Source: Styela clava
Taxonomy: Eukaryota > Chordata > Ascidiacea > Stolidobranchia > Styelidae
Length of the DNA stretch: 64,000 nt
Assembly: GCF_964204865.1 (NCBI RefSeq)
Contig: NC_135255.1
Coordinates: 6,229,135-6,293,134, forward strand
Direction: 5' to 3'
In this document: piece by piece, positions 15,001-64,000 of the stretch
Layout: each line of letters opens with the position of its first letter
How positions within the stretch are numbered: position 1 is the first letter of the stretch
Notes under the pieces: generated by a model
Database searches by the model: none
Told to the model about the DNA's origin: nothing
Seen by the model: only the letters and a program-made list of their open reading frames with translations
Translations under genes and position numbers: made by a program

Positions 15001-18000
15001 AAATCTATCTGAAATTGTCAATATTTCTCATACAGCACGATTACCTTTGTAAGAAAATTTCTTCTGGATTGTATGATTTCTTGGCTAAAAATTCTGGCGT
15101 ATTGGCGGCTACTGCTTGAGTCTCAGCCATGGTTCGCTTCCTTTTTCTAAACAGAGATTCCCCAGCATTTGCACCAATCTCTTTATCTTGTCTTGCTTTT
15201 GGATTCCGGTATACAAATTTATCAAGAAATCTGAATCCAAGAAAATACACTTTACCAGGTAATTACCAGGAGCACCGAGAAAAGAGAATCCAAAATATAA
15301 CATACTGCTTCTTATTTAGTATATTTTGAAAAATTAAGCCTAGTAAAATAGGTTATCATTGACAAAATATATCAACATGAAAGTGGTACTGTAACTGCAA
15401 CCTGAAGTCATTTGTTATGAACTAGCCCGAAAAAGGGTCAACTAACATTGACACAATTTTATTATAACTGACAAAATCAGAAAAACATAAAAGTAATGAA
15501 ACCAGGGAAGTATAAAAGTAATAGACTCCTGGAAGACACTTAAATCATCAACTACTGGGAATCTCAAAACAATAGCTGTAGCAGCCGAACACAAAAAAAA
15601 TTTGCGACTAGAACAAAACTTAAGCAAAATGATCTATAGGTGAACTTTATGGCCAAAAAGCCTTCTCAAAACCACTATTTGGGAACGCAAATTGTATATA
15701 TCGGATATAGAAATTGAACGAATGAGCAAAAATTAATCACTGATAATAAAATACTCATTACATTAATTCATATTTTAGATAATTATAAGACAAACTACCC
15801 AAAAAACTAAAAATGCTTTATAAAGCATTTGAATCGAGACTACATCTGCAATTTCGCTGTCAATTCGACTTACCGCATCAAAGTGAAGTCTTGCAATGGA
15901 TCGCCAGAATATTTATCAGGTTCATTATTTCTTCCAATGTCAGTAATTTCTGAGGCAAATTTGACAATGGTTGGATGAAAATGAGATCTGATTTGATGGA
16001 GTTCCCAAAGAGAAGTCTTTTCTGCATTTGCAAATGTCGGGTTGCGATGAGTGGGATCGTACGTAGTTGATTGGTGATGAACATTCTTCTTGTGCAAATG
16101 CGTCCATGAATTACCTGCAAAAACATTAATATTCTAATTCAATAATAAAAATTTTGTCTGTCAAACACGATTTTACCACGTTTTTAAACCGCATGTCACT
16201 TCCATACATTAGATAAGAAACAAAAAAGGTTTAAGAGTATATAACACTTTTCACTAATACGCAATGCTAATTGAATAACTGAGTTGCAAGTTTTGATTTA
16301 AAGCAGGAGTCGGCAAATTCAGGCCTGCGGGTCGGATCCGGCCCACTTGTGTCTGCGGAAATTACAAATATAGTTTTTATGGATATAAATTTTCCTATTG
16401 AGCTTTGAGCCTTCAGCCCAGTAAACAAGTCTATTATATACAACTGGCCCACTCTAAAAAGTAATTGCCAATTTGTGATTTAAAGTGAAGTATTTTCTTT
16501 TTTTTTTCTCAAGTTTGGTAATAAATTATTTAGTTATAAATAGTCTCAGCAATAGAAGTAACAGTGACTCGCTGTGAATATCTTATAAGTAAAGTCATTA
16601 TAAACAGTGACATGTGAACAGCTACATCGATGTTAGCAAATTGCCATCAAATGACAGTCAACCAGAAACGAAAGCAATTCAAGACAGCATAAAGGAAAAC
16701 AATTCCATGCAGTCGAAGTTTTGAAAAACAAATCCAATTAAAAATAGGGCGAGTCTGTTCAAATTTGCTATGATTTGGTAGAGTTCTTCAACTCATATAT
16801 ATACAATTAATTCTTTAGTTATACTAATTCTTTCAAAAAACTATATTCTAATTATCAGTTTATCACATAAAAACAAACCTTCTGTTTTTTGCTTGTCACT
16901 AGCATTTTCAATATTGGAACTTTCATTGATTTGAGTACCATCATGTTTGTCAGCATCAGAAAAATGTTCTTCATCACTGTCTTCATCAATTTTTCCTTTT
17001 TTACTACCTACAAATGAAAAAAAAGTTGGAATAATAAATAAAAGAATAATAATAGAAAAACAAAAATAACTATTTTTTTTTATTGAACCTGCACAAGGTA
17101 CTGGTAAAATCGACTCAATTACAAATGAACCACAAAAAATGGTTCCATCAAGTCCATGCATCTGAAACAAGTAACCGGCTAACTAATCCCATACCGGATA
17201 TGTACTGGTAACCGTACGAGAAATTGTGGTTCGGCATAATATGGTTGGTTAAGCAGTCTTATCGACTTTCCTTTCCACTAGGTTAAATATGTAAATCCCA
17301 TCTTTCCTCAGTTTAAATTGTTACCTGCAGTAGAGACAGATTTGAAGCGATTCCCACTCAAAAAACATCTTATACTTGGTCTTGATTTCGATAACTCCGC
17401 TATCAAAACAAGCACTGCACTTGTATATGCTGCATGTTGTAATGTACAAGTTTGTAAAAGGCGTTTCAAGAATGCTTGTACTCTGGCATCTGATGGGTCC
17501 GCTTTCATTGATCTGAAAAAAAATTAAAATGTCATCTAGATATAAACAGCATTAAAAAGAACTTGTACACATTGTTTATGACCACACACTATTCAGTGTA
17601 TATACGGTCTTTTGCATTGTGCAATATACAGTTTTGCAATTTAACTAACTGGCGACCATAGAACCCTAGAAAGTTTGAGATATTTCATTATGTATGATCC
17701 TTGTTTGTCCCACTATTAATAGTATTAACAGCAAATTATTAAAACACTATTTGCGACACAACAGTTATTCGACCGATAAATCAGCTTATTCATAAAGGCG
17801 AATCACAGCTTCACAAAATGTAATAGACCAGGCCAGGCGCGTAGCCAGGATTTTCAAAAGGAGGGGGGTTTCATAATCATAAATTCCCATTGCGGTCTGT
17901 AACAGTCTTCGCATTATGCGCTCGTTATTAAAGGGACGTCTTTTCAGCGTATAATGATTATTCTTGTCGCGTGAAATATTCAATCTCTGACAACTACAAA

Positions 18001-30552: not shown

Positions 30553-30720
30553 AAGATGGGATTTACATATTTATCACGGGGGAAAGGAAAGCCGAAAAGA
30601 TGTCTTAATCATATGGTGAACCACGGCCTCACGTCCGGTTACCAGTCCAGGTCGGGTCTGGGATTAGTTAGCCAGTTATGTTTTTGGAAGCACGGACTTG
30701 ATTATTAGATACAGCCTAAC
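30553..30720 (+). repeat. Dispersed SINE-like repeat, good copy
   Basis: GATGGGATTTACATATTTATC, GGTGAACCACGGCCTCACG, GGTTACCAGTCCAGGTCGGG and GGGATTAGTTAGCCAG are the clearest versions of the family's blocks. It lies about 530 bp upstream of the CEBPZ start codon. Confidence 0.7.
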
Positions 30721-32401: not shown

Positions 32402-33190
32402 TTAATGAGACGGACCTGGCTCATCAGTTTCCATTGGAACTACATATGGACTATTAGAAAGTGTTTGTTTTATTGACTCAAGTCTGGCAAGTAATTCCCC
32501 AAATCGGAAATGTCCTGTATTTTGATTAAATGGGTCTTGCATTGTTCTCCCATCCATTTTCATCAAATTCTTACAAGTGCTAACATAATAATCATAATAT
32601 TCCATAAAAGATGACTGCACAACTTTTTTAACTTCAGTGTCCAATGAATTGTTAATCGCCATATCACAAACAGCAACTCTTATTGTTTCATGTCTAATGC
32701 AATCATTGTATCGCATCGAGTCACCAGCTACTCGTTCACTTGCAAATCCCGGTTCATTATGATACGGTGACTCGTTCATCACAGATTGTATTGAAATAAG
32801 GACAGATGATAAAGATTGGGCGGGACTCCAACCAGGCCCAGACCAAGTTCCAAGTATGCTCAAACACACTTTGCCATTTTTGTAGAAATTTGGGTTGAAA
32901 CGTACCATTCCAAGACCAGTTGTTAGCAATTTTACTCTGGGGGGCTTTAATGGGTAATTAGGAGGACAGCGTATGTAAAATAAGAAAAATCCCCCTTCGT
33001 AAGGAGTGTCAAAAGGTCCAGTTACTATGGCCTGTAATCGTGTTATATCATCTGGATTAGGTAAGATGACAACGCCTGGTGGAGGCGCTCTGTATATTTC
33101 CAAAATATCTTTCTTCAGTCGGACTATGGTGGTGTGAGATGGAGCTTCATTTCCCCAGTCATGAGATTGCAGAGGATCCCAGTATGACAT
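32402..33190 (-). CDS. UBE2Z: Ubiquitin-conjugating enzyme E2 Z
   Basis: One exon encodes 262 aa from the ATG at 33190. The UBC fold runs from about residue 21 to 165, with [14 protein letters not shown], the [20 protein letters not shown] region and active-site Cys109, then the UBE2Z-specific C-terminal part ([30 protein letters not shown]). UBE2Z accepts ubiquitin or FAT10 from the E1 UBA6. Human UBE2Z is 354 aa with a long N-terminal extension, so this product would be short. However, the frame is open without a stop from 33190 back to an AG acceptor at 33226-33227, so an upstream coding exon is possible. The intact frame and conserved residues argue against a pseudogene. All its plus-side and minus-side neighbours are unrelated in function. 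Confidence 0.95.
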
Positions 33191-33524
33191 AATACACAAA
33201 AAATATCTACTATACTGAATAACACCTGAAAAATATAGTGAAAAACAAGAGCTGCTGAGTCAAAGTTCGGATACAGTTTGGTGTGTTTTTATTAATTTTG
33301 GAGTCAAAGTCAGAGACATAATTTTAAACTCCTCAAAGTCAAATTTCAGACAGATTCCAAGTACATTAAAACATCATAAATAACAGTCGGTGCAAACCCC
33401 TCTTTTACTTGACGGTCTGAGCCTCTGTATCGACTCAAACGGCAAATTTGCACAGTTCAAAAAAACTAAAAAATCTAAATCTAAAAAAAAATCTAAAAAC
33501 TTCACCATTAGATTTCTCGGAAAA

Positions 33525-40305: not shown

Positions 40306-40791
40306 CCCATGACTAGTGTGTAAGGTAGTTTATTCCTAGCAGTTTGCCATTACAGCTGTAGCGTAGGCTATGTACGATTTAACGTCCAAATGAACATAGG
40401 CTAAAAGAACTGCAGGATAATAATTTATTGAAACGCCTAATTTAAGGATTAATCTGCGCACGTAATGTAGTAACGTTTGTGCAAAAGGAAATTGATATGT
40501 GTAATTGATATGCACGCTTCGGACTTTCGAATTTAAGTTTTATCTGCACCCATGCCTTTCGATATTTACTGATCGTGTTAAAATTCCCAACAATAGAAAT
40601 CCAAAACGCCTCGTGTCTATAACCGGAAGTGGAAATAGCTATTGATCTGGTTGAGTCACATATACCGTATATTCTTGAAATATTGCTAACACAAGCTTAC
40701 AGAAACATATGCGTCATGCAAAATAGACTATACCATAGGCGACGAGAAGGAATTGAAAAACAGTGATTTTTATGAAAGAAGGGCAAACAGC

Positions 40792-41730
40792 ATGTTGGAA
40801 ATACATCCTAAAATTAGTTTGAAAGGGAAGGAAAGATGGCGAACGTCAAAGCGAAATATAAAATGGTATTTTTTGTTAGCAATCGTTGTTTTTATATTTT
40901 TCTGGACTTTCGTAAAAATGCGAAAATTAGAATGGTCGCCGTCGATTCAAAATAGTGTATCTGTGAAATATGGAGGATATGAGAACATTCGCGGATCATC
41001 GCCATTGAAATTGCGTTGCACTACTTGTGCTCTTGTCACCAACTCCGGGCACACAATCGGATCGTACTTGGGGCGTCAAATAGATCAAACCGATTGCGTA
41101 TTTCGGTTGAATCGAGCTCCCGTTACAGATTACGACGATGACGTGGGGAGCAAAACTACAATACGCGTGGTGTCAATGAGAAATCTTAATGCAACTTTAA
41201 GCAACGAAGCTCTCAGAAAATCACTTGGTGATGTTGTTATAGTGTACAGCAGACATAAGAAAAGTGAACATGCTGTCGCCCAGAACAAAGTTCGGCGTTT
41301 GATTTCCGAAAATAATATCGAGGCATCTATTTTTATGATAACGGATGAAACACTGAAGATAATAGATGGAACATTTCGTGACCATGTTTATTTGGGATCG
41401 AATAAGGCAATTACAACAAAAAACTTGCCAACGACAGGGTTTACTGCCTTTACAACTGCAATGGAAATATGTCAAAACCGGTTGGACATTTATGGTATGG
41501 TCCCCCCATATCACTGCTTGAAATATATGAATACATATGATGCTCCATACAGCTATTTTCCCCCAGGAAACCAAATTCCAAGCTGCAAAAGAGAGAATAG
41601 TTATGGGAAGCGCTATGCAAGTTCACATATTTTCACGGAGGAAGCCATAGCTATTCGGGATTTAACACAAGACTGCAGTGAAGTCAGATTTTTCTCTCCA
41701 GACTGGAAGAAAAGACTGAGTGAGCAGTAA
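40792..41730 (+). CDS. ST6GalNAc-type sialyltransferase (GT29), single exon
   Basis: 312 aa from the ATG at 40792; the frame is open further upstream, but the next ATG (40772) is in another frame. It is a Golgi type II membrane protein: short basic cytosolic tail, membrane segment about 25-41, stem, then a GT29 domain. Sialyl motif L starts at C76-x-x-C79 with ALVTNSGHTIG and runs through DCVFRLNRAP to DVGSKTTIRVV. Motif S is at about 213-236 (PTTGFTAFTTAM..IYGM). Motif VS is H279-x4-E284. The PDW near the C-terminus is also typical. Motif III, usually HYYE after Pro-Tyr in ST6GALNAC3-6, reads SYFP (254-257). Family role: transfer of sialic acid from CMP-sialic acid in alpha-2,6 linkage to GalNAc on glycoproteins or glycolipids. 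One N-glycosylation site at N133. Vertebrate homologues have introns, so the single exon could be an ancestral retrocopy. Confidence 0.9.
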   Translation: MLEIHPKISLKGKERWRTSKRNIKWYFLLAIVVFIFFWTFVKMRKLEWSPSIQNSVSVKYGGYENIRGSSPLKLRCTTCALVTNSGHTIGSYLGRQIDQTDCVFRLNRAPVTDYDDDVGSKTTIRVVSMRNLNATLSNEALRKSLGDVVIVYSRHKKSEHAVAQNKVRRLISENNIEASIFMITDETLKIIDGTFRDHVYLGSNKAITTKNLPTTGFTAFTTAMEICQNRLDIYGMVPPYHCLKYMNTYDAPYSYFPPGNQIPSCKRENSYGKRYASSHIFTEEAIAIRDLTQDCSEVRFFSPDWKKRLSEQ

Positions 41731-41836: not shown

Positions 41837-43994
41837 CGGAACTCGGAGACTCTAAGTCCATTTTATAATTTGCAATATTTATCCTTTTCCTTAATCCGAT
41901 TTTGGATGCACTGTGATGTTCATGTTATTATTATTCTTTACATATTTCAAATACCGCATTTATTATATTATCATCAAGCGATATCGAATAATAAAAAAAA
42001 CATTTTGACAGTAATATTGTGTTGGGGCTTCAAAAGTTTGCAGTTAGACCACCACGCACGTCAGAGCTAGAGCTGGGTGTCTTGAAACAATGATCCTGTA
42101 CGTCGAAACGGAGAGGTTTAGACATTCGGAAACGCGTATTATGACGTCATATAGAATGCTAACGGAAATCGTCAAGGTATCACCTTTTGAACCAATGAAA
42201 AATACATCATTTTTGTCGAAATTATTGCAGATGTGTATGGCTTCGCTGGTTGAGAACATTCCGTGGCATGGGATAGAGTAGCAAACAATAATATCGGTCA
42301 GAGACTGAAGACTACCTTGTGTCTCATCACTAATTAATTAATAACCCGCTAATTATACGACATAATTCATCCAAAATCAATAGGCTTCTGGTCCGACATA
42401 TGATGAATGCACATGCAAAATTTGGAGCAGATTAAACCTCGCTTTCGTGAGATACCGCGTGCATCTAACAGACAAACAGACCTATCAATACCTATCAACA
42501 TACTTACCGATTAAAATTGATAAGTAATAAGACCAACAACTACATGAGATTCTATGCTAGTAACATTGATCCACTTACATAGTAACGTGATAATAATTTG
42601 TCACAGCTTGACCTTAAATATCTGTTAGTTCCATCCATCTAAACTCCCTGAAAAAGAGTCTCACTGCAGACCATACAGCTAGAAAATTGAGATCTGACTA
42701 AACAGGCAAACGCGTAGAAGTTTTTGAAGGAAGTGCTAATTTGAGACCGCGTGACATAATTAATCAGGGGAAAGTGGCTACCTTCTTCTAACGTTTTTCT
42801 AATTGTTCACCAGTTTTCTTTCATTTACATGTACAAACTTGAACTGTTTACGTATTTTTCTCGTGCTATTTGTTCACTGTTTTGTCGTCAACTAAAACCG
42901 TTCGGAAAAAAATAACCTGCACGAGGTGCGTTGTATTATCATTTCATATTCTCGAATTAGCTTCAAGTGCTTTCTTTTTCGTGGATTTAATCCTTGGAAA
43001 TATCTGATATTTTACAATGAACTCGATAATGGTGCCATGTTTTACTGTTTGTGACAAACTTGTAGGAATTGTGTTTCGTTTTGATTCGGAGATAAAATTT
43101 CGTTTCGATTTTGAAACACCAAATAGAAATTTATTTTAAAAATTCCGCGTAATTTTCTTTCAGCTATATATTAACTTCTCTCGCGAAAAACAATCATGAA
43201 AAAAAGCTCGTAGTCTACTCAGGTTCGCTTACAAATCCTTTCGAACTCCTTTCGCATTTTCTCGGTTGCATTGTATGCAGATTGATTCGAACCATTCGAA
43301 AAAACGAAAAAAATGAAAACTATATAATCAGACACACGCCGATAATCAGAACTATACCATTTATGGTTAGAAAAAGTGATTTTTTACGCTATCGCCAACA
43401 ATTTTGCAAATATATATGTACGCTACGTATTCTTTTCAAACTAATTTCTAATTAGATTTTTTTTCTGATATAAGATAATACCAGCATGTTTGTTCCATTA
43501 TGTTTTACATCACTATTTGCATGATCGCTGGCAGATAGAGTTACCACAAAAATAAAAAATAAATTTTCACCTAATATAAAGAAACGAGGAAGATCAATAT
43601 ATACGACGTTTACACGAGTACGTGAATATTTATTCGTGTTTAGCTGTCTATGTGCTGTACCACGAGCCACGTAATAGTAATCATAATGTCTCAACGAGCG
43701 CAATCATATAATGTAATTTATCTTCGATAAATGTTTTGAAAGAGTTGTAAAAAGCCTAATTTGAATCATTCATAAATTTAAAAATGAAATAATGCAGTTG
43801 GCAAGCAGAATCGTATGAATAGTGTTATTATTTCTTTGCCAAGTATGCGCATTGCCTGAGGCCTAGTTAGGTACATGCGTCGTCCTTTCTGCCTTACGTT
43901 AGATGCCGGAATACTTCTAACGTAAACCGGTTGTAACGCTTGTACATGTGAACGATTAGACGTAAACAATGAATTCAGATTATTGGCAGTTCAG
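41837..43994. other. Spacer between sialyltransferase and GT31 gene A
   Basis: No exon or defined repeat recognised. It must contain the promoter of the GT31 gene that starts at 43995. Confidence 0.5.
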
Positions 43995-46900
43995 ATGTCT
44001 TATATCGCTCCTTGTCAGGTTATTAGGTATTTAATAAGTAAAGCATCCATGATTGCTAAATTATCAGAAATTCTTCATGCTAATAAGCATATTATCCGAG
44101 GAGCGATTGCCGGAATACTCTTTGGATTCGTGTATAACTACGGTCGAATGGGATGTCTGATAGGACGGAATGCGTTAGAAGAGCTGTATAAAACGTAAGT
44201 AAAATATTATGCAATGGTATATATATATATATATATAGATAGGAAATGACTGGGCCCTTTCACATGATTCGTTAGCAGTTATTACCACAGACAACATTGT
44301 CAAGAAACTGATGACAAGGGTACGCTTCCATTTATCATAATTTGCACCAATATTTCACCACGGTATATAGGCTATACTTTATATATATATTTGGTAAAAG
44401 TTTTCCTAAATTCTTTTTAAAGTCCTGTTTTGTGATAATGATTGAATTGAACATTTTTTTACCTTTTTTGCAAATTCAAGAATCGTCATTTAGCTTTGGA
44501 ACTGTAATCAAAATAATTATACAATGCCACCAGCACCTGCAAAGCCTTGGTAAACTGTTTTTACTTGAACGACCTCTAGCTATATATATATATAATATCG
44601 GAAAGTATTTGAACATTGAGGAAAGGTTCTTCTATACTCAGGATTTCGCTTTCTCAATTACAAAAGCGCAAAGAATAAAATAGCTTACATGCGTGTTTGC
44701 TCTTACAATATAAAATTAAAGATGTACCGATACTACTTTTATCGCCGATATGATTACGATCCGATAGCAACAAAAAATGGCGAAACCGATATGCTGATAT
44801 TTCAAAAAGCCAATATTCCGATACGAATATTTCGATAATATATAATTTTCATTCTGACTGCAGGGACAGACAGAATAAAATAGTTATCTGCAAACTATAT
44901 TCGTAGTGATCATTATTTCAGCCTGGAGAACGGGTATTCCAGAATATAAGAAATTGGTATTTATGATTTAAATGCATATATGACGTGTGATTGGAATCAA
45001 TGCTAAAGTACTTGAATTAATAGCATAGTAAATTGCTTTGCAACATAGTACTTATGCAAAAGTGGCAGTTTCTATGGTAAATGAAAACGTGGCGCTATAA
45101 TACCCGTTTAAATTGCTAGGGTGGGGAGCGTTCGTTACTCAATGGCCAGACCGAGCAGTACGCTTGTACACAATCACCGACTATAGTATACTATTCAATA
45201 ACTGTGAAAAAAAATTCAGTTATCATATCACCATCCATATGAACCTACTAACTTTTAGAACAAGGTCTATTTGGAATAAGACATCGAACATTTGCTTTTC
45301 CCATGGTATACATGAGCAGGTAGGTTCCATTACATTTGAACCCACGTACATTTGAACCCATGACAATTGCACCTGTATGCCATTGCACCTATGGAATTTT
45401 TTTTGTTTCACGGATAGTTAAACCCATACTAACCCTAACCCATGGGTTTTAGCACCCGCAAATAGATTGAACCCGTGGATATACGCATGGGTTCAAATGT
45501 ACATGGGTTCAAATGTACGGTCACCGAGCAAGTAGACTCCTGGTTCAAGCGGGATACGTAAGACACTTGCGACAATTTTATATAAGATTACATTTTGTGA
45601 TTCAAAAAAATTAACAAAATGTAAGTACCGGCGCGGTTTCAACAAGATAGAGAGGTAACGTGGTAGCGCGATAGTGCGTATACACAGTCAGATTCGAAAA
45701 TCGTTCCGCGTATAGGGTAAGTGATTAGTGATAAAATACATTCCAGAGTGCGAGCACAATTCTAGCTTTCCCGGAAACTGACGGGTCGATTGGGACGAAA
45801 TTTGGCACGTAATTTTGGGCTGGTTTCCACGTGACCCAATAATTATTTTGTTGCAATTGGACCAGAAAAGTTTTTTGTGATTTGGAGGCGGATACTGGTT
45901 AAATAAGCCATCAATCAAATCACAATCGAATTATTTCGTGATTTAGAAGCTGTTCAGCGTCGTTTCGGGGATGGGAAAGCGTTTGTCTGATCACTGGCAA
46001 CTTTTTCGAGTAGTTTTGGCGGTGGGCGCCGTGATACAGAACTGTCATGGTTAGACAATACTTCTGAATATCGAAGTTAATTAACAAAGTCAATTAATTT
46101 TGTCGTTTCGCATGTCTCTTTCTATATTTAGTCCTATTTCGTAAACACTAAGCCTAAATTTTCTTTAATTTAATAATTTTCATTGCGTTGTCTTCCAACG
46201 AGAATCTCATGTGATGGGACAGGCTTAAATTGCGATGGGACAGGAAAATATGTCCCATGAAGAAGCCTGGTAACGAATGATGATTAACACTTTTGGATTT
46301 TGCTCCGGAAAGCTTTGATTTCGCAAAAAAAAACGTTTCAAATTTCTAGTAAGAAATTCGAGATGGGTCGTTATTAAAAAAAAAATTGTGTAAAGGTCTA
46401 TAAAGACCCAATATCACACTGCGTACACTCTTAGATCCAGTTGTATTGTAAATGACATTCAATTTCAGGAACGAGCCGGATATACCAGAAATGTTTTTGC
46501 AAAATCTATCAAGCCCAAGTATTCCAACACCAGGAGATGACGGATTTCGACAAATGTGAGTAAAAGTTGGAGAAATTCTGCTTCATGTTGATTTTGAAAA
46601 TATTGAATATGACGAATAATTTTTAGAAGCTTTACTAAATTACTTACCAACGTACATCTGGAGAATTTATGCATGACTTCTCTCCATCCATCTATCCGTT
46701 CTGTTTTTCGCATTTAGGCCATTTAAAAATGCCACGCAGAATACACTTATTTTACTGAAAAGTATTGAAAGGTAGAAAATTATATTCCATTAATATAGCA
46801 CGCCCAGACGTTTTATGGGGTCAAAACACTTTCTGAAAATTATTATGGAATTATTACATAACATTGGCCGATATTTTTGAAAAAAACATTGTAATGGCTG

Positions 46901-49900
46901 AAATAAAAAGGCGTCTAAGATCAAAGTATTGTCTAATTCAGACCATGGCGACTGAAAGATATTATAGATACGAATTCGAAAGAAAAATATTCTATGATAT
47001 TCATTGTAACAATGGCCTGCTTTGATGTAAAGCGGAGATTCAATGCTCGTTTAACTTGGGGTACTATCAGCAATATTGAAGAAAAACGGTGAGTTGCTGT
47101 ATATGTTACTATTCTGTAAGGCCAATGTGATTTTAAACAAGTGAGCGATGCTTAAATTTATGAAAACGGAGACAAAACGGCAAAATACTGAAAAGAATTG
47201 CACCGAATGTCATATGAAGATGCGCCCGAGAGCCAATAAATTTATCTCGAGACGCTCATCCTTTAATAATAAAAATTCAGGAAATTTGAAACTACGACTC
47301 TGGCAACAGGATATTCCAGCAAAATGCCAAATTTGACTACCGGTGTGACTAGGGTTGCCAACCGTCCTTTATTTTTTAAAAGACAATCCTTTATTTAAGC
47401 GTCTCGGTCCTTGTCCTTTTTGGCATTTGAAAAAGATGCCAATTGTCCTTTATTTTTTCCAACGTCGTTTTGCCCAATAGTCATAGTACTGTGTTTGACA
47501 TGGTTCTGTTCTTAAAATATCGTCTACGTTTATGTATTTGCAAGTTTTTAATTTCGCTTTGGTTCGGCTCAAATAGCCGAAAAAATAACAATTTTCATTA
47601 ACATTGTTTGGGCCAATGTTAAATAAACATTAAATGAAAAACACATGAAGAAGATTGTTTTAATATAACTTTTTAGTTTGTATATAATCTTTATTTCATT
47701 GTTTTATATTGTTCTTTTCTGCAAGTTACAAGATGATGACGGTAATCTATGTCCTTTATTGAAACTTTTTATAGTTGGCAACCCTAGGTGGGACCCCACC
47801 AGTTTTGACAATATACTGATCGATAGCTCGAATCAAAGAGTCTTTTATCACAGTTACACAACGAACTAATCTCAGTTCCATAACACCGCCTTCATTGTCG
47901 AGTTTTCTTGATAACTTTTGTTAACTTTAGTACTTTTTTCTCAAGAATCGGCGTGATATTTGTCGTCGGAGATGGTATAACGACCACTCATAATAAAGTG
48001 TTGAATGATGAAAACAACATTTATGGTGACATATTGCAGACTAACACCAAGCAAAATGATAAACAAAAATCAATTTTGGTAAGATTTTTGATTTTCTAAT
48101 CATGAACCATAGCAGCAGTTAAGTTATACGTTCGTGTTATAATTTCAGTCCGCTGTTTACTATATATGCTCATAATTTTTTTCAGTCTCATATAAACGGT
48201 CTTCCGGAAAATCATATGTTCGAAAGTCACGTGAATAGACTTTAATTTCTTCAAAATATTGCTCTCTAGAGTGGAGGCCATTTATATTTCATCTAGGCAA
48301 TGCAAAAATATGGATCGACAAGCTAAAATTTAATTTTTGTATTTCGAGTAATTTATTATAATCCGGGGTTAGTCTCCGTAGCGTTTGACCCGTTTCGAAA
48401 ATTTGATCGATTCATGTTTTGTGTTCATGCAGTATTATTAAAATACTGCACTGTAAATAAACTTCTGTCAAACATATTGCGAACCACGGCCTTGCCTATG
48501 GTTAACAAGTCGGGTATGGGGATAATTAAGCCAGTTATTTGTTTGGGATGAATGGAATTGATGGCGAAGGAAGCCGTTATAGACCAGCGGTTAGGTGGAC
48601 CACCCAACGACAGCAATCCTTTCACACAGAATTACCCCCCAAGGGATGCGGACTCTTGCAGGGTAATCAGAAGCGTATTCTTGGGACTCTTGCAGGGTAA
48701 TCAGAAGCGTATTCCTAACGCTTTGCACGACGCGTCAATCGATTTGAAACAGATATTACATGGATTCCGAATGTACCTGCAAAATTAAATATGGCCCCAT
48801 TCATGAGTTATGGTCGGATTTGGAATCGTTAATCTTGAACTATTATTTTTTAGCTATTGTCTGGTTACCAATGGATAATCCAAAACTTGTGGGGACGAAC
48901 TGAATATGTTATTAACATGGACAGTACCATTTTCCCATACCTTCCAAATTTATATGAATATATTATGAGAATAGAAAAATATCAAAAACAAAATCTTATT
49001 CACTGCGGGTTTGGAATGAAAAGACCTCGACGTAAACCCAGGTAAGATAATTTCAATTTAACTTCATTAACATGCCTAACATGCCCGTGATTCCAGGTTA
49101 TTATGGGTAGTTCTCGCGTCCTGGACCTGGTCGGTGAAACATCGAACCCACTCTTTTCAGCTCATCAGTGGTGTATTAATGAGTAAATTTTTCAAAAGGC
49201 AAAGATGATAAATATGTGTGGTTGATGTGGTTCAAAGGTTTGTAAAAAAAAATAAAAAATAAAATAAAAAAAGCTACTGGAATTTTAATAGACCCATAGA
49301 CATTATATTTTAGGAGCTATCTAATTTTTTGTTTATATATATATATATATGCCAACTAAAGTGTCACTGCTGTAATAATAATGCCCATATTTGTGTTATT
49401 ATTAGGATAATAGTTTATCATAATATTAACATAATAGGTAATAGTAATAATAACATAACATGATAATAGTTTAGCGTAATAAATATAGAGTGCAATAGCA
49501 TTATATATATGCGTCCGAAGATTATGTAAATTAGCTTCACTATCTTTTTTTTTTCTAGGGATCCAAGTTTTCCGAACTATGTGTACTTGAATGATTATAA
49601 CAAACCATTTTTTCCGTCTCACTGTGAATCAAATCTTGTTGTTTCATCTTTCGATATGATTCGAAATCTTTACGGAACGGGTATTCTTACGAAAATGACT
49701 GAAGTAGGTCCAGACGTTCACATTTGGGGCATCTTGAGGGAGAAAATTCGTAAAAACCAACAACAGGAAAAGATGAACATCATAAGTCCTGAGGAATTTC
49801 TCAACACAAGTGACGCAAAAATTATTCTTCCATTAGCTTTTCAAATTCCATCTTTAATTACAAAGGGCAAAAACCCTTACAACTCATACTGGAATAGAAC

Positions 49901-50063
49901 AAAATCTGGGTTCCTCATTAGCGACTCAGAAACCGTCAAAAATAACAATAAAGAGAACCGTGTCGTACTGAGGAAGGCAAATTTGAGTGATAAAACCACG
50001 GCTGATAAAGACTTTAAATCATTTGTTTATAGGTGGAACCGATTGCCTATGAGAATTGTATAA
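43995..50063 (+). CDS. GT31 beta-3-glycosyltransferase-like protein lacking DxD (gene A)
   Basis: Seven exons: 43995-44194, 46469-46555, 46718-46771, 46942-47088, 47946-48078, 48854-49041, 49559-50063. Phases are 2, 2, 2, 2, 0, 2, and the product is 437 aa. Topology is type II with a membrane segment at about 36-51. The GT31 fold is recognisable: a FDVKRRFNARLTWG block like the RR..IR.TWG motif of beta-3-galactosyltransferases (exon 4), a VIFVVG strand (exon 5), and a C-terminal half matching the PxYCxGxGYVxS and EDVyvG region (exon 7). Key motifs are changed. The DDD/DxD metal site is M229-D230-S231, the GDI.Q.DF.DSYRNLT block is scrambled, and EDV is P321-D322-V323. The frame is intact, so it is either a recently decaying gene or a pseudoenzyme or changed-function protein. 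Compare gene B at 60884. A family member in the Golgi would add galactose or GlcNAc in beta-1,3 linkage. Confidence 0.85.
44218..44237. repeat. TA microsatellite
   Basis: Ten TA units in GT31 gene A intron 1, 24 nt after the donor. A similar TA run is at about 49328-49350. Confidence 0.9.
45331..45517. mobile_element. Foldback element with 32-bp inverted ends
   Basis: The left arm 45331-45362 and right arm 45486-45517 are reverse complements with one mismatch. Each arm is itself two tandem copies of GTACATTTGAACCCAT. The centre holds further inverted wording (CCATGGGTTTT, ATTGAACCCGTGGAT) and a CTAACCCTAACCC stretch that resembles a telomere repeat. In GT31 gene A intron 1. Confidence 0.85.
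47350..47786. mobile_element. Non-autonomous hAT-like element, 437 bp
   Basis: Exact inverted ends TAGGGTTGCCAAC and GTTGGCAACCCTA, with flanks GGTGTGAC (47342-47349) and GGTGGGAC (47787-47794) matching at 7 of 8 bases. The body repeats GTCCTTTATTTTTT. In GT31 gene A intron 4. Confidence 0.85.
48476..48735 (+). repeat. SINE-like repeat with internal tandem duplication
   Basis: GCGAACCACGGCCTTGCC, GGTATGGGGATAATTAAGCC, ACCAGCGGTTAGGTGGACC and CCTTTCACACAGAATTACCC match the family at 6870-7180. A 31-bp block beginning GGACTCTTGCAGGG is repeated with a 34-bp period at 48650-48714. In GT31 gene A intron 5. Confidence 0.75.
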
Positions 50064-50157
50064 TATATATGCTTGAAGAACCTGAAATATTTTTATAATA
50101 TAACGCGTCAGAGGCGATGTAACAACTCTAAACTGTCAATAACGCTGTAGCTTTCGA

Positions 50158-50500
50158 AAGCAAATAACTGGCTAACTAATCCCATACCCGACCTGGACTA
50201 GTAACCGGACGGGAGGCCGTGGTTTGCCATATGATTAAGCCGTTTCACCGGTTTCCCTAATCCCGGGATAAATAGGTAAGCCCTATCCTATCCTAGTTGT
50301 GCCTAATTTAGTTACTTTTTTATGCTAATACCAACCTGCATCAGCTAGGTGTCGCTGCTTGAAGATCTCTCTAGGAGTCTAGGTTCCTCGCGACTCCGTC
50401 ACACATTAACACGATCAGTATATTTTATTTGTCGTTATACAGTTTCTATCTGCTTGTTTTTTGTGATGACAAATAAAAGATTGATTTCTGTTGCCTCTGT
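50158..50500 (-). repeat. SINE-like repeat (minus) joined to retroelement-like tail
   Basis: 50158-50302 is a minus copy of the family (AACTAATCCCATACCCGACC, ACTAGTAACCGGACGGGAGG, GGGATAAATAGGTAAGCCC). 50330-50500 then matches 23280-23485 and ends in an AT-rich GACAAATAAAAGATTGATTT tail. It lies just after the stop codon of GT31 gene A, so may supply part of its 3' UTR. Confidence 0.65.
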
Positions 50501-52410
50501 ATCAGCCTAATAGGATTGTATCGAGACTAGATAATTAACCTATGTATATATGATCACGAGAGCGGCAGAGAAGACATTTTAAAAAGATTTAGAACAATAA
50601 TCACAGCTCAATCATGACCGATTTGACGTAAACAGATTTAAACTGTTACCTAACACGTTTGCAGTGAGTTTGTTTAACATAGATTTGACGTGTAAACATT
50701 GGCGTATCTGACATAAAGGGGTGCATGGCCCCTCAGGCCAATTTTGTCACATTTTTATTGCAATCCTGTATGCAGTAAGACATAAATTAATACGCATTTT
50801 TCATCACCATTTTGCTCTATTTTTGAACAATTTATTGAAAACCGGACGTTTCCTGGCTTGCTATCAATAATCCTTTCACCAAATGAACCAAACGGATAAC
50901 GGATGCCTTGGATAACTTTGACAGTGAAGTAGTCTGAAGGGCGATTCTTTGAGATATTGTTAGATATCAGTGGCTACTTTATCTGGCTTTGTTCGGAGCC
51001 AAAGGCACGAGTGAGCGTCGTGTTACGTCATTATACAAAAAATAAAATTTTGCTCCCCCTCCCGTGGCCAGGTGGGCCGCCGTACGCCACGTTCGTGTTG
51101 TTATTGGACACGAGGTCTTGATGGACGTGGAAATTGTTTGGTATTTTGTTGTTGTTGTTGTTATCGTTCTTCTAGTTTTCATTCATATATGTTCGTGTGT
51201 GTAATATTGGTAAACTCGCATACACAATAACTGTATATCGTCATGCAAGAATTCGCAAATAATTCAAACACAGGTGTGTGTGTGTGGTTCACGCAATCGC
51301 TGGCCGATTACGGCTTCCTCCACCATCAAGTCCATGCCTCCGAAAACATATAACTGGCTATCAAGTAACTAATCCCATACCCGACCTGGTATTTAAGAGT
51401 CTGGAACACATAAAAATTGAACGAAATTATCAGCGCTAAAAAGTACTTGACTTGACACCACTCTATTGCAAATGAGTATTTAGTTAGGACGAACGAAACA
51501 CGCAGTCATCTCGTGAACCAAATTACAATTATTCTCAATATAATATCTATATCTTAAGATAGACTTTTCGTGTTAGTACTGGTACAATTATTGAAGTCCA
51601 GATATGCACAACTCTTATAGCCAAGTCGCCGGATTTTAGTCCATTATTATGTTTTAATAAACCTCATCCCATGGTGAGTATAAATATCTTGACCCACCAC
51701 AAAAAATAAAATCCATGACCAAATGATTTTTCTACAAAATATAATATATTTATTTATTCAACTATTATTTTTCACATATTAAACCAGTTGCATACACACA
51801 TTCAGAATACAATATTTCTGATCAATTAATTGTAAATAAAAAATAAGAAGAAATAGAAGGGTGCTGTTAAATAAATTAGGTTAGAGGAAAATTAGGATAG
51901 ACGTTTTTAGATGTAATTTATCAAAATTGAATTTCCATTAAACATGTTTTGTTAAACATCAAAAATTTTAATAGTTATGATATTTTTACAATTCTTCCCA
52001 TATAACAATATTTCATGTTTATATAATAACCAGTAATACTGTGATATATCCAAAATTTTATTTCATATAACTTAAAATGGAATATTAGTTCAAACAATTC
52101 GTTGTAACTAAAAAATATATAAAAAACACTTTTGTAAAAATTATTCTCATGTAGGCTAATTAGAAATTCTAGAATAGTCCAGTATTCTAAAATTCAATCC
52201 TCCAATTAATTTCAATTTTGAAGATTCAAGATGGAAAAAGTATGTTACAAACCTGAATTTCGACATACGTTAGGAATTCACTATGGAAATGGCAAATTTT
52301 ATAGAAAAAAAATAGTTTTAGTTGTTATATGTTGAATTCTTTAATATAGAACCTTTTTAATAACAATTAACTCATATAAAATGAATTTTTTCGACATCCT
52401 TAAATGTAGT
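50501..52410. other. Spacer between converging GT31 gene A and XRRA1
   Basis: Contains a diverged hAT-style block near 50700-50770 (TGGCGTATCTGAC, GGTGCATGGCCCC) and a minus SINE-like fragment at 51290-51395 (TTACGGCTTCCTCCACCATC, CTAATCCCATACCCGACCTG). 51700-52400 is AT-rich with no exon seen. Confidence 0.45.
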
Positions 52411-54588
52411 TTATTTATTAAGAATTGTGTTTTGTAAATTTGCAACTTCCTGCTTTGTCTGTTCCAAAGCACGCTGAGCTTGCCTTGATGCTTTTAGCGA
52501 CTCTTCTCTGACAACTCTGTATTTCTTTTCAATCTCATTCAAAAGGCTATCTGCTTCAAGCTGTAAAGTCTTATCCGTTTTATCATTTAATGCAGTAATA
52601 AGTGGAAGTTCCATTGCAGCAGCAGGTCTATCTCTCATCCTAGATAATGCATCGTTCAATTTTTTAGATTTGTTGAGTTTGGAGTTGGGTTTCGGTTGTG
52701 ACCTCACGTCATGTTTTAGTCTCTCTACTGTTACGATTGAATTGTCTTGATATTTAAATTTTCGCAGCCGTGCTTCAGGAGGTGCTGTTACGGATGTAAC
52801 TGCCAGTGGGTGATGGAGGATTTGCCTGAGCATTTTTACATTACCCTGAATCGAGAGATTTTCATGGATATCTGGGTCAGGTTTTGCATCCTGTAAAAAC
52901 TCCTTCATAATTTGAGACTCTGTTTTAACAATTGGCTTTTCTGTAACCGAATTCGATTTTTCTGTTGTCTTTATGGTCTGCTTATCTTCAACAACCTCTT
53001 CTCCATACTCATCTTGTACTTGTGTAAGGAAAACGTTGTCTTGATCAGATTCTTTATTTGGCAAATGACACTTATCAGCAAAATTTTCCCGTTGTACTGG
53101 ATCAGGATTTTTGTCTATAACAGGTGGACGAGGAACATGTCCAATTGCTGGTTTCCGAAACTCTTCTAACATCACATCAAACGGATGTTTCATGATTTTA
53201 GGTACACGAGAAGAAACTCTACGCCTATCATGATCAGGAACTCTCAATGCTGGTTTCATTACAGGGGCCCTGGGTTTGAATCTCATGATACTTATACCAA
53301 GCCTATTGTGTAAGTAATGTGATAGAAGAGGTGGTTCACCTTTGCTATTGTTTATCAATGGATTTCCATGTAATACAAGAGCTTGTAGTGCTGGCCATGC
53401 CGCAATAGCAAGAAGATGTTCTTCTTCTGAGATTTTATTATTCGCAAGACTTAAAATACGAAGATGTTGAAACGGCGGAGTAGAAGACGATGTATTGTTA
53501 TAAGATGAAATATCTGTTGTTGCGGCAGTATCCTTGTCATCAACAATTTGCAGTTTCTCAGATAAATCTTCTTTCTTTTCTGAAGTCTCTTCATCCAACC
53601 CCAAAGGCTTAATAATTCCTGATATTGTTTCATTGGAAATTTGTGATTTATTTTTACCACTTTTACTTGAAGGCCTAGAGCGATTACTCAATTTCACACT
53701 CGTGGGTCTTGATTGCGAATGGGAATGAGCTGCTGATAGCACCCTCTCTCCAACTACTTTAAGATAAGGCACAAGAGTTATTTCGTTTTTATCAAGATTG
53801 AGCTCTCTCAAACTAGGCAGTGCTGCAAGGGCCGCAAATGTTGACATATCATGCAATCGATTGTCATCTAACATAAGAACTTCAAGGCTTTGAAAACGAG
53901 TATATGTTTCATCACTATCTTCATCGAGAGAAAAAGGCTGACAAAGGTCTGGATGAATTTGTGACAGTCCATTTCCGGTCAATGTTAGTACTTTGAGTTT
54001 AGGTAAATATCCAAGTGAAAGCATATCACTGGCACTTAGATTATTATAAGACAAATCCAATACTTGTAAAGTGGCAAAATCGCCAGGTTGTATACCAATG
54101 TTTCGCACACCATTTACTGGCATTTCTAATTCTCTCAAATTTGGGAAAGTTGAAAAAGGTCGCACAGTGAGAAGATTTTCAGCTGCATTAACATAAGCAA
54201 CATTTTTAAATTTTGAGAAATCTGAGGTCTCGTCAAATTCCAAATCACAGTCACTGATATTAACACTGCACAAATCATTGATAGAATCAACATGGTGATG
54301 TCTCAACAAAAATTCTGTAGTAAGATTGTTGACAAACTCGGATCTTTTGCCTGGTGCTGCAAGTGATCCTTTTTCATCACCATCAATGTAATTCTGTTGT
54401 TGAATTTGGCTAACATCTTTTTTTGGGGGTTTCGGTTTGAATTTGCGACTTTGTTCATGAGCATATGCTACAATCCATGAACCAGTTCCCTCGTGTGTAA
54501 TTCTTGATATACCTCTTGCTGGAAAACAGTTCACAGCAAAGGTGCTATCGTCTTCAAGCTTCCAAATAGCACTTGCTGGTGCCGCCAT
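52411..54588 (-). CDS. XRRA1: X-ray radiation resistance-associated protein 1
   Basis: One uninterrupted frame of 725 aa from the ATG at 54588. N-terminal WKLEDD..NCFPARGISR matches the start of vertebrate XRRA1. Leucine-rich repeats span about 105-290 (NAAENLL, FPNLRELEMPVNGV, LQVLDLSYNNLS, LKVLTLTGNGLS, LMLDDNRLHD) and resume at about 385-430 (LRILSLANNKIS, PLLSHYLHNRLGI). The VFLTQV and AKPDPDI motifs of the family follow. A coiled coil ends the protein (about 675-725). Human XRRA1 is about 790 aa and split into many exons; here a single exon encodes all. The family is linked to response to X-rays in cell lines, with little mechanism known. The stop codon overlaps AATAAA on the minus strand (52412-52417), a possible very close poly(A) signal. 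Confidence 0.92.
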   Translation of the reverse strand: MAAPASAIWKLEDDSTFAVNCFPARGISRITHEGTGSWIVAYAHEQSRKFKPKPPKKDVSQIQQQNYIDGDEKGSLAAPGKRSEFVNNLTTEFLLRHHHVDSINDLCSVNISDCDLEFDETSDFSKFKNVAYVNAAENLLTVRPFSTFPNLRELEMPVNGVRNIGIQPGDFATLQVLDLSYNNLSASDMLSLGYLPKLKVLTLTGNGLSQIHPDLCQPFSLDEDSDETYTRFQSLEVLMLDDNRLHDMSTFAALAALPSLRELNLDKNEITLVPYLKVVGERVLSAAHSHSQSRPTSVKLSNRSRPSSKSGKNKSQISNETISGIIKPLGLDEETSEKKEDLSEKLQIVDDKDTAATTDISSYNNTSSSTPPFQHLRILSLANNKISEEEHLLAIAAWPALQALVLHGNPLINNSKGEPPLLSHYLHNRLGISIMRFKPRAPVMKPALRVPDHDRRRVSSRVPKIMKHPFDVMLEEFRKPAIGHVPRPPVIDKNPDPVQRENFADKCHLPNKESDQDNVFLTQVQDEYGEEVVEDKQTIKTTEKSNSVTEKPIVKTESQIMKEFLQDAKPDPDIHENLSIQGNVKMLRQILHHPLAVTSVTAPPEARLRKFKYQDNSIVTVERLKHDVRSQPKPNSKLNKSKKLNDALSRMRDRPAAAMELPLITALNDKTDKTLQLEADSLLNEIEKKYRVVREESLKASRQAQRALEQTKQEVANLQNTILNK

Positions 54589-60883: not shown

Positions 60884-63800
60884 ATGACCCCTCAGATGAA
60901 GTATGCTGGAAACGGGTCTACCGTATCTAACGGTCATCATTTGCGAAGTTACAAATTTCTAAAACTTGAACCGGCTATAGTTCGAAATATTCATCTGAAA
61001 CTTATCTTTGTAACTTTTGCAACTTTCTGCATTGGAGTTATTATCGGTTTTAATGTGAAGGATATAATGATACAGACTTGTGGTACGGCAACATCATCAA
61101 TAGTACACCAACCGATAAGAAGGGAAGTTCTCAAAGTTTCGAAACCGAAGTAAGAATAGCTTATAGTCAGTCTTAACAAAACGAAAATTGTGTTAACACC
61201 GACTAATCATTTTAACAAATAATGTACTTCCTTATTTCCCCAGAAACGAACGCATACCGTTCGAACAACTTCCAGAAAAATATCTGAAGAACATCCCGAT
61301 GCCACCACCAGCAAATTCATTTCCGTTGAGGTAAGAGTAACCACACAAAGCATATGCAGTGATACTGTCTCTAAAGTGAATAAATCGTGTTTTTATTTTA
61401 CTTGAATGCATTTTTTTTTCATATTATTCATAGAGTTGGATAACGACTAGGGCCGAGCATTTCGATTCGAATAGTAAATTATTCGAATTACTTCATACGA
61501 AAATTTCGAATCGCCGCCATCTAGGTTTTTTTCTGTCCGCAAAGGGTCGAGATGGATTCCAAACTTTTTTTTCATTAAAGCCATATTTTGACAATGCAAT
61601 TCTGACATATGACTCTTTTCTTCCTGATGAGTTATTGAAAAAACATGTTTCCTATTGTGTGTGAACGCTCAGCGAACTTCCTGAGTGATGGATTATATGT
61701 TTCCAGTAATTTATGTGTTAGGAGGACACATTACAATAAAAAAAGTCACATACAAATACACATCTTCCACGTATGCGAGATTCGATTCGAAGGAAATATT
61801 CGATTTGATTTTGAAATCATCAGTTATTTGAAAACAATTTTTCGGCATCTCAGCAGCGCAAAAGCAAATCGGTATTGGAAAAGGTTATTACCGGGTATGA
61901 AAAAAGTGGACATTTTAAACATAAGCCAACTTTTGCAACACGATTACAATTAGGAGTTGGGGTTTGTCGCTCAGTCTGTTTAGGTCTTGGTTTACAGGGG
62001 TTTTAATTCCAACTGAAGTTGTTTTAGACTGACTAATGGGGCGTTAGAATCTACTACTGGACAAAAGCCTACCGGTGGATTTAAAGAAAATAGATGCTTG
62101 AAAATATTCATGTAATGCAGCCTACGTCAAACTTCGCATAACTTCGGTGTTTGTGTTTGTAACCATTCCTTGAACAACTTTCTCAAAGAATGCAAGTTGT
62201 AAACATGTCGGATTTTTTATATTTACATTATACATATATTATATACGAGAACAAAATGAATAAATAGGTAATCACGGTTATGGTTATGGCTTAGTATATT
62301 ATGCTATTGTGAATTGCGAGTCTTCAACGCTTACTTCTCTGAAATAGCATAATAATTCAATTTAATGAAGATATAAATATGGAGGTTAGCATAACATGAC
62401 AAGAATGTTCTCTGCTATAAATTGTGAAGCTTTTTGTGAATATTCCTTACGCGTTTGCGTCGTTTATTGTTGAATCCCACACATTTTTGATTAGCTCTAC
62501 TCTTCTCCGAACACGACTAAGAAATAAGGTTTACTATTGATATTTTTAGACCATGGAAAATAACAGACATGATAAATGATTCTTCGGATGCAAATCCCCC
62601 GTTTTTCCTTACAATTCTGGTGAAATCTGCAGTTAGTTATGCAAGACGAAGATTTCAAATCCGACAGACGTGGGGATCAATGAAAAGTATAGAGGGCAAA
62701 AAGTGCGTTCTTTTATCATATCTTGTTTAAGGCAGAAAATACCTGTTATATATTGTTCTATATTATCCCACCCTAGCTATGGTAAGGAGAATATTAATTT
62801 CTACTGCATGAGCTGTATGGAGCCGCATACATTACATTATTTTTAACTGACTGCAAAGTATTATTGATTGGGTAGACTATATCTCTGAATCTACAATGAA
62901 AGGAAGACCTAATTATTGTTTATTAATAGTAAAAAAAAAAATTTTATTCAATATTTTCTTTAAATCCATATTTAGGCTAAAAATTGAACTCGCATTAGCA
63001 TACATTATCCGATTGTATATTTTTTTTATACAATTGTTATTTAATTATTTCCCTAATCGCTTTTTATTACAAACATTCGAATCTAAATTGTATCATCCTT
63101 TTTATAGGATTGCTGTGATTTTCGTTATCGGGTTGGCAACTTCGAAAATACAACAAGAATTTTTAGAAAAAGAAAATAAATTATACGGAGACATCGTTCA
63201 AGGAGACATAAAAGATACATATCGAAATTTACCTTTAAAGGTAAAGTAGTTTATCTTCTATATACATCTGCGACCCCTCAGGGGAAAATTGCGTGGCCTG
63301 CGGAGACGTGCCAATTTTGAATATTGTGCGGCCCGAAACGAGTTTTCAACTTAATTTGGCGATAGCCGATACCTGAGTCCAATTTCTTATCTATGCCTAT
63401 GACGTCACAATGCCTCAACAGCTACCTTGTGCAAACAACGCATGTCATAAAATCAGTAACCAAAGTATATTTGTGCCTGAAACTACTAGAAAGCCTATGT
63501 TAAATAAAGGTGCGGCCCGAGTTTTTACCCAGCTATTTGTATCTGGCCCTCCTGTATTAAAGGTTGCACACCCCTGGCATACACAATCAACTCCCATGAC
63601 CACTGCTCTGATAAGATAGTGGTTTCTAATCTATTACTAACTGTCATCTGAGAAATACGGTCCCAGCCTTCGCTGCATGCATTATTTTTGTTTGTTTTCA
63701 TTAAAAAAAAAATAATTCTGTTTATAATCGACTCGTTTTAATCTGAAGTATTTTTTAATATTTTTTTTCAAGGTACTTTCCGGTTACCAGTATATTGTTG

Positions 63801-64000
63801 AACATTTTGGTAACGCCAGCGAATACTACGTTTCTACGGACGATGATTGTTTTATCAACATTCCAAATACATACGAGTATTTTACCGATCTTGATCCGGC
63901 TAAAAGAAATGCTGCTCATTGTGGATACATTTATTCTGCTCGGTCGTCTCGTATATCGTAAGTATAATATATATAACCTGGTGCTGGATTAATTTCAAAC
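60884..64000 (+). CDS. GT31 beta-3-glycosyltransferase with intact DDD (gene B), partial at right edge
   Basis: Five exons visible: 60884-61149, 61244-61330, 62550-62702, 63108-63240, 63773-63957, with phases 2, 2, 2, 0, 2; the gene continues past the window (274 codons seen). Type II topology with a membrane segment at about 38-57. Family motifs: ARRRFQIRQTWGSM (exon 3), VIFVIG, YGDIVQGDIKDTYRNLPLK (exon 4), and the metal-binding D236-D237-D238 in STDDDCFINIPN (exon 5), followed by HCG. This is the standard beta-3-galactosyltransferase/GlcNAc-transferase pattern: Golgi enzyme, UDP-sugar donor, Mn2+ dependent. Exon lengths 87 and 133 are identical to those of gene A; 153 and 185 nearly so. 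The two are paralogues. Acceptor and linkage cannot be told from sequence, and the EDV motif lies beyond the window. Confidence 0.92.
63277..63577. mobile_element. hAT-like element remnant
   Basis: The right end GGTTGCACACCCCTG reads as CAGGGGTGTGCAACC on the minus strand, a hAT-type terminus, with GGCCAGATAC and TCGGGCCGCACC next to it. The left side begins CAGGGGAAAATTGCGTGGCC. No target duplication found. In GT31 gene B intron 4. Confidence 0.55.

Follow-up and report, generated by a model that had tools for sequence, protein, structure and literature searches.

Gene A, a GT31 gene of Styela clava, is best read from its sequence as a long-standing duplicate of the B3GALT/B3GNT type that has turned into a pseudo-glycosyltransferase and has been retained for a non-catalytic role, a reading to which we assign a probability of about 0.58. 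It concerns one gene model in one genome, and was reached within a window of 64,000 nucleotides, the whole stretch of DNA that was analysed.

Results

Gene A occupies 43995-50063 on the forward strand, and its six exons are spliced into 1260 nt that encode 419 aa and a stop. All five introns are GT/AG.

43995..44194, forward strand, gene A exon 1: encodes the N-terminus, in which a stretch at about residues 37-57 weakly resembles a signal anchor
46469..46555, forward strand, gene A exon 2: 87 nt, the same length as in gene B
46942..47088, forward strand, gene A exon 3: start of the GT31 domain, with motif 1 as ARLTWG
47946..48078, forward strand, gene A exon 4: 133 nt, the same length as in gene B
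48854..49041, forward strand, gene A exon 5: includes what was once the DxD site
49559..50063, forward strand, gene A exon 6: covers the loop on the acceptor side, the xED region and the 3' end

Codon-usage scoring, for which three other genes in the window served as the training set (the leucine-rich-repeat gene, the GT29-like gene and gene B described below), gave the spliced frame as the best frame for 6/6 exons. The sequence-only reading, whose span of 48854-50063 corresponds to exons 5 and 6 only, had described gene A as an intact GT31 paralogue of seven exons and 437 aa. The spliced open frame and a match to Pfam Galactosyl_T bear out the intact paralogue, and splicing in frame with no stop was likewise obtained, but the exon number and the length were not, as translation from the ATG at 43995 across the six coding exons yields 419 aa. 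Splicing of gene A did not recover the claimed seventh exon or the 18 additional N-terminal residues, and the N-terminus of the 419-aa model is provisional. The best 19-residue mean hydropathy of the anchor stretch was 1.3, versus 2.3 in gene B.

The start ATGs of gene A (43995) and gene B (60896) both stand directly 3' of an AG (gttcag and cctcag, respectively, immediately before the ATG), as expected at a splice acceptor that follows an upstream 5' exon or receives a trans-spliced leader. Intron 1 of gene A contains a pair of inverted repeats (45331-45362 and 45486-45517; each of 32 bases, with 96.9% similarity and a spacing of about 120 bases) that resembles a small terminal-inverted-repeat element.

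Gene A matched the Pfam profile PF01762, Galactosyl_T (GT31), at 3.3e-15 with 56.8 bits (cut-off 23), residues 126-316 aligning to profile positions 1-188 of 195, and the gene B fragment matched the same profile at 2.1e-24. Among solved structures, seven distinct sequences matched gene A with E no higher than 1; the sole GT31 protein was human B3GALT5 (3.5e-07), the remaining six were chance-like matches to other proteins, and no C1GALT1 chain was found among the seven. Gene B matched B3GALT5 (2.2e-19), B3GALT6, four B3GNT2 sequences and, weakly, C1GALT1 (0.37). For the B3GALT/B3GNT members of GT31, the accessible part of PMC7948737 gives motif 1 as (I/L)RxxWG, motif 2 as (F/Y)(V/L/M)xxxDxD and motif 3 as (E/D)D(A/V)(Y/F)xGx(C/S). 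Motif 1 of gene A, A131-R132-L-T-W135-G136, keeps the Arg, Trp and Gly and carries Ala in place of Ile. On these sequence comparisons, genes A and B are both of the B3GALT/B3GNT type, and gene A is not of the C1GALT1 type. Nothing scored above cut-off in NCBIfam, and the whole window held no RNA family at the gathering scores of Rfam; searches for relatives gave 16 pattern matches in viral contigs and 208 in prokaryote genomes, none of which was confirmed.

Gene B begins at 60896 on the forward strand, about 11 kb from the end of gene A at 50063, and runs beyond the window end, with exons 1-5 inside the window and its last part, including its own xED (EDV) motif and C-terminal His, outside.

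60896..61149, forward strand, gene B exon 1: a further in-frame ATG stands 12 nt upstream of its start
61244..61330, forward strand, gene B exon 2: 87 nt
62550..62702, forward strand, gene B exon 3: motif IRQTWG
63108..63240, forward strand, gene B exon 4: DTYRNLPLK intact
63773..63957, forward strand, gene B exon 5: DDD intact, residues 232-234

The two genes are 36% identical over the shared part. Exons 1-5 measure 200/254, 87/87, 147/153, 133/133 and 188/185 in genes A/B, and with the exon lengths so matched all five comparable introns share their phase. A gene for a 725-aa leucine-rich-repeat protein on the opposite strand (52411-54588, reverse strand, one open frame) separates the two GT31 genes, so that they are not immediate neighbours. 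Just upstream of gene A is a 346-codon open frame of the sialyltransferase family GT29 (40690-41730, forward strand; PF00777, 8.3e-26), and an open frame of the ubiquitin-conjugating enzyme type was found at 32402-33259 (reverse strand; PF00179, 4.1e-28). When 43800-51800 was compared with the whole window, a dispersed repeat family emerged whose copies are 69-83% alike and stand in both orientations, at 50158-50289 (just past the gene A stop), 48470-48562 (inside gene A intron 4), 51284-51389, 30555-30702, 17145-17238 and 6886-7061.

In B3GNT2, as described in the parts of PMC7948508 and PMC7948737 that were available, Asp215 and Lys223 bind the uracil and Thr216, Phe217 and Leu220 cradle it; Asp245 touches the sugar and Asp246 the ribose, the metal ligands are Asp247 and His376, and Asp333 is the base. 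The altered sites of gene A are spread over three different exons and include the following.

48052..48078, forward strand, gene A codons 181-189: QNDKQKSIL in place of DTYRNLPLK
48920..48928, forward strand, gene A D212-S213-T214: in place of DDD, the first Asp kept and the metal-binding last Asp changed to Thr
49710..49718, forward strand, gene A P303-D304-V305: possible remnant of xED (EDV), register uncertain

At B3GNT2 positions 215, 216, 217, 220, 223, 245, 246 and 247, gene B reads D, T, Y, L, K, D, D and D, and gene A reads Q181, N182, D183, K186, L189, D212, S213 and T214, so that D215, F217, L220 and K223 of B3GNT2 are represented by Q181, D183, K186 and L189. The uracil-binding pair Asp215/Lys223, present as D and K in gene B and the three human enzymes, is absent from gene A. 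The alteration claimed for the SYRNL block was confirmed, as QNDKQKSIL stands where DTYRNLPLK is expected. B3GNT2 Lys149 corresponds to Thr in both gene A and B3GALT5.

Motif 2 of gene A reads Y207-V-I-N-M-D212-S-T214 and departs from (F/Y)(V/L/M)xxxDxD in its last Asp, which is Thr. The loss of the DxD that had been claimed holds in that the motif is altered, but not for the motif as a whole, as its first Asp (D212) is retained. Nor does the claimed placement of M-D-S opposite the DDD stand: the ungapped alignment gives D212-S213-T214 (D230-S231-T232 in the earlier numbering), one position off, and rules out the M-D-S register, and B3GALT5 reads DSD at the D-S-T site. The Ser in the middle place of the DxD is no loss, because B3GALT5 carries it. 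Over 10 donor columns, gene A showed a mean similarity drop of -3.17 versus -1.45 in conservation-matched columns (p=0.014; 20,000 draws with 9 to 57 matched columns each, from few comparators), and gene B showed the reverse, +0.87 versus -0.65 (p=0.99975). A cruder test on 17 columns invariant in four comparators, of which gene A lost 4/5 at the donor site versus 5/12 elsewhere, was not significant (p=0.29). These comparisons suggest that the donor site of gene A is likely altered beyond the rest of the protein, which we grade as likely rather than proven because the comparators are few.

The proposed change of EDV to PDV in the xED motif was recovered in part: of four MAFFT runs, only the global-mode run sets PDV on xED, and later runs on trimmed gene A differ in register. 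In Pfam coordinates the EDV of B3GALT5 falls at 176-178, and gene A residue 316 falls at profile position 188, which is consistent with either of two registers: PDV plus an insertion of one residue, or, if nothing is inserted, D304 at x. When gene A was cut after PDV or PDVHIW, the Pfam match ended at profile position 165; a profile of B3GALT5 and B3GNT2 ended at gene A residue 292, short of xED. The best candidate for motif 3, PDVHIWG, differs from (E/D)D(A/V)(Y/F)xGx(C/S), and its register is uncertain. It is possible, judging from these alignments, that the catalytic base is retained as D304. The first MAFFT run misplaced the tail of gene A, and the rows for B3GNT2 positions 331-376 were left out; its acceptor-side rows 282, 289 and 300, with P, N and F in gene A and I, W and Y in B3GALT5, were not weighed.

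Histidines of gene A occur only at 28, 32, 160, 239, 273 and 306, with none in residues 307-419, so the C-terminal metal His that follows the xED region is missing under any alignment. According to the part of PMC7185993 that was available, this His is not essential in every GT-A family, and water can substitute for it; loss of both metal ligands is a stronger sign than loss of the C-terminal His alone. The earlier prediction that gene A is inactive as an ordinary Mn-UDP-sugar enzyme is backed more firmly than the sequence-only reading could show, because gene A has lost the two protein ligands of the metal as well as those of the uracil.

The last 74 residues of gene A (346-419; 49839-50060) are rich in Lys and Arg, with 15 K+R versus 6 D+E. 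This tail carries N-glycosylation sequons at 364 and 393 and is, by rough register, longer than the stretch of B3GALT5 after the metal His.

An alternative splice form that restores a DxD was looked for and not found. When gene B and B3GALT5 were searched against the 64 kb by tblastn, exons 5 of genes A and B were the only exon-5-like matches with E below 1, and one chance-like match was seen at 903-1019 (E=1.9). DxD-like strings at 47717 and 48633, from a motif scan of the forward frames of the gene A locus, had no exon-5-like tblastn match and were rejected. Beyond the stop of gene A, 50183-50242 weakly matched (E=1.3) the B3GALT5 stretch that contains the metal His. A missed 3' exon at this place was rejected, as it lies inside the dispersed repeat copy at 50158-50289 and its frame differs from that of exon 6; the match is most likely due to chance.

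Among 37 columns that are hydrophobic in all three human enzymes, 29 are hydrophobic in gene A (background 0.45, p=3e-5) and 32 in gene B; most of the hydrophobic core of the GT31 domain, and with it the fold, is thus preserved in gene A. The 22 columns invariant in three human comparators are changed at 13 in gene A and at 6 in gene B. Over 148 A/B codon pairs, pN was 0.40 and pS 0.82 (saturated), with pN<pS in 500/500 bootstraps, and randomly paired A/B codons gave a pN of 0.72. Because pN/pS draws on the two lineages at once and pS has reached saturation, the constraint indicated by these codons is joint: it applies to the lineages of genes A and B together rather than to gene A alone, and gene B alone could supply part of it.

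In neutral simulations from the gene A coding sequence (1000 draws per setting), the probability of no stop was 25% at 0.02, 3% at 0.05 and 0.6% at 0.1 substitutions per site, and when frame-breaking indels were added at an assumed 0.075 per substitution, the frame stayed open in 3.8% at 0.02. To reach the observed A/B identity by neutral drift, about 0.5 substitutions per site are needed (43% at 0.4 and 30% at 0.6, simulated from gene B), and at this level about 20 stops are expected over the length of gene A. None is present, so nearly all of the divergence of gene A would have arisen with the frame kept. No fewer than 9 base changes among 15 bases are required for the five clearest donor losses (a hand count from codons, with the family residues assumed ancestral and the sites picked afterwards), whereas 0.05 per site predicts about 0.75; nine changes in fifteen bases are too many for a brief final decay. 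In relative rate tests, gene A had more changes than gene B with B3GALT5 (20 vs 6, p=0.009) or B3GALT6 (24 vs 7, p=0.003) as outgroup, and 15 vs 11 (p=0.56) with B3GNT2. Because neutral drift would disrupt so long a frame early on, the donor losses look old and gene A looks retained.

Discussion

Several features tell against the pseudoenzyme reading. The faster rate of gene A against two of the three outgroups also fits relaxation, the first DxD Asp and perhaps the base are kept, and the anchor is weaker than that of gene B. A dying duplicate, its function already lost and its stop or frameshift yet to come, would account for that rate as well as for the weak membrane anchor and for the 13/22 invariant columns changed in gene A versus 6/22 in gene B. 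We nevertheless consider this unlikely, in view of a 419-codon open frame across five GT/AG introns, the 3% chance that a neutrally drifting frame stays free of stops at 0.05 substitutions per site, and the five donor losses, whose minimum of 9 changes in 15 bases stands against about 0.75 predicted at 0.05 per site.

The retained sugar-contacting Asp, together with a base that is perhaps D304 and the Lys/Arg-rich C-terminus (15 K+R vs 6 D+E in 74 residues), would also suit an active transferase that works metal-free or with another donor, as in GT14 and prokaryotic GT6, which lost the DxD independently and remain active according to the accessible part of PMC7185993. Against this, the uracil contacts are lost too, Pro stands at xED unless the register is off, and no particular basic residues that could stand in for the metal were recognised in the sequence, so that an active gene A seems quite unlikely. 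Its fullest form, a metal-independent GT31 enzyme that positions the sugar by the kept Asp, retains the base and replaces the DxD metal, the C-terminal His and the uracil clamp by new donor contacts, is very unlikely, and such a mechanism is not described for GT31 in the portions of the literature examined. An error in the gene model or assembly, whether a missed exon or collapsed alleles or paralogues that hide an intact form, appears highly improbable. The evidence does come from one assembly, the N-terminus differs between models (437 vs 419 aa), and the weak match at 50183-50242 (E=1.3 to the B3GALT5 metal-His stretch) lies 3' of the stop; that match, however, falls in a dispersed repeat and in a frame other than that of exon 6, the window holds no second exon-5-like stretch at E below 1, the exon lengths and phases match those of gene B, and the altered sites sit in three different exons.

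Among known systems, COSMC (C1GALT1C1) beside C1GALT1 (T-synthase) is, like gene A, a GT31 paralogue with no working DxD. The accessible parts of PMC5493369 and PMC7185993 describe COSMC as the chaperone of its paralogue, with no stabilising interaction with Mn or UDP-Gal, and the latter reports the loss of both DxD and xED. COSMC groups with C1GALT1, whereas gene A is of the B3GALT/B3GNT type, still has the first Asp of its DxD and may have the base as well, and its partner role is only proposed. A COSMC-like chaperone role for gene A is only an analogy, and a looser one than the sequence-only reading implied. The precedent of B3GNT8 and B3GNT2 is, as an analogy, at least as close. B3GNT8 belongs to the same subfamily type as gene A, and both have changed donor and metal residues; in B3GNT8 these are Asp245 to Gln, Tyr289 to Phe and His376 to Arg, and B3GNT8 is 20-fold less active alone and more active as a heterodimer with B3GNT2 (PMC7948737 and PMC7948483, in the parts available). 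B3GNT8 is still an enzyme, whereas gene A keeps Asp245 and loses Asp247, the His and the uracil pair. The active GT31 enzymes B3GALT5 (8zwp) and B3GNT2 (7jhk) share with gene A the domain, the Arg, Trp and Gly of motif 1 and the first DxD Asp, but carry all of Asp215, Lys223, Asp247 and the C-terminal His, which gene A lacks. The metal-independent GT14 transferases have no DxD metal site, like gene A, but use basic residues on the diphosphate, as described in parts of PMC7185993 and PMC7948508; no such residues were identified in the sequence of gene A. Among the literature matches listed, from which subscription journals were mostly missing, no title or abstract opening pointed to a B3GALT/B3GNT-type paralogue like gene A.

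Under the pseudoenzyme reading, the product of gene A would no longer bind a metal-UDP-sugar and would still fold as a GT-A domain within the secretory pathway. It may be kept for binding something else, most simply an active GT31 paralogue that it would serve as a heterodimer partner or folding helper; alternatively, it could hold a glycan acceptor without transfer. Gene B or another GT31 gene of the animal would be the candidate partner, and because gene B, a relative in presumed active form, lies about 11 kb downstream, partner binding is directly testable. In our judgement, large glycosyltransferase families can be expected to produce inactive paralogues. If the reading is true, the B3GALT/B3GNT branch of GT31 would have given rise to a non-catalytic paralogue that was retained, separate from the C1GALT1/COSMC pair, and gene A would offer a natural case for how dead glycosyltransferases steer live ones.
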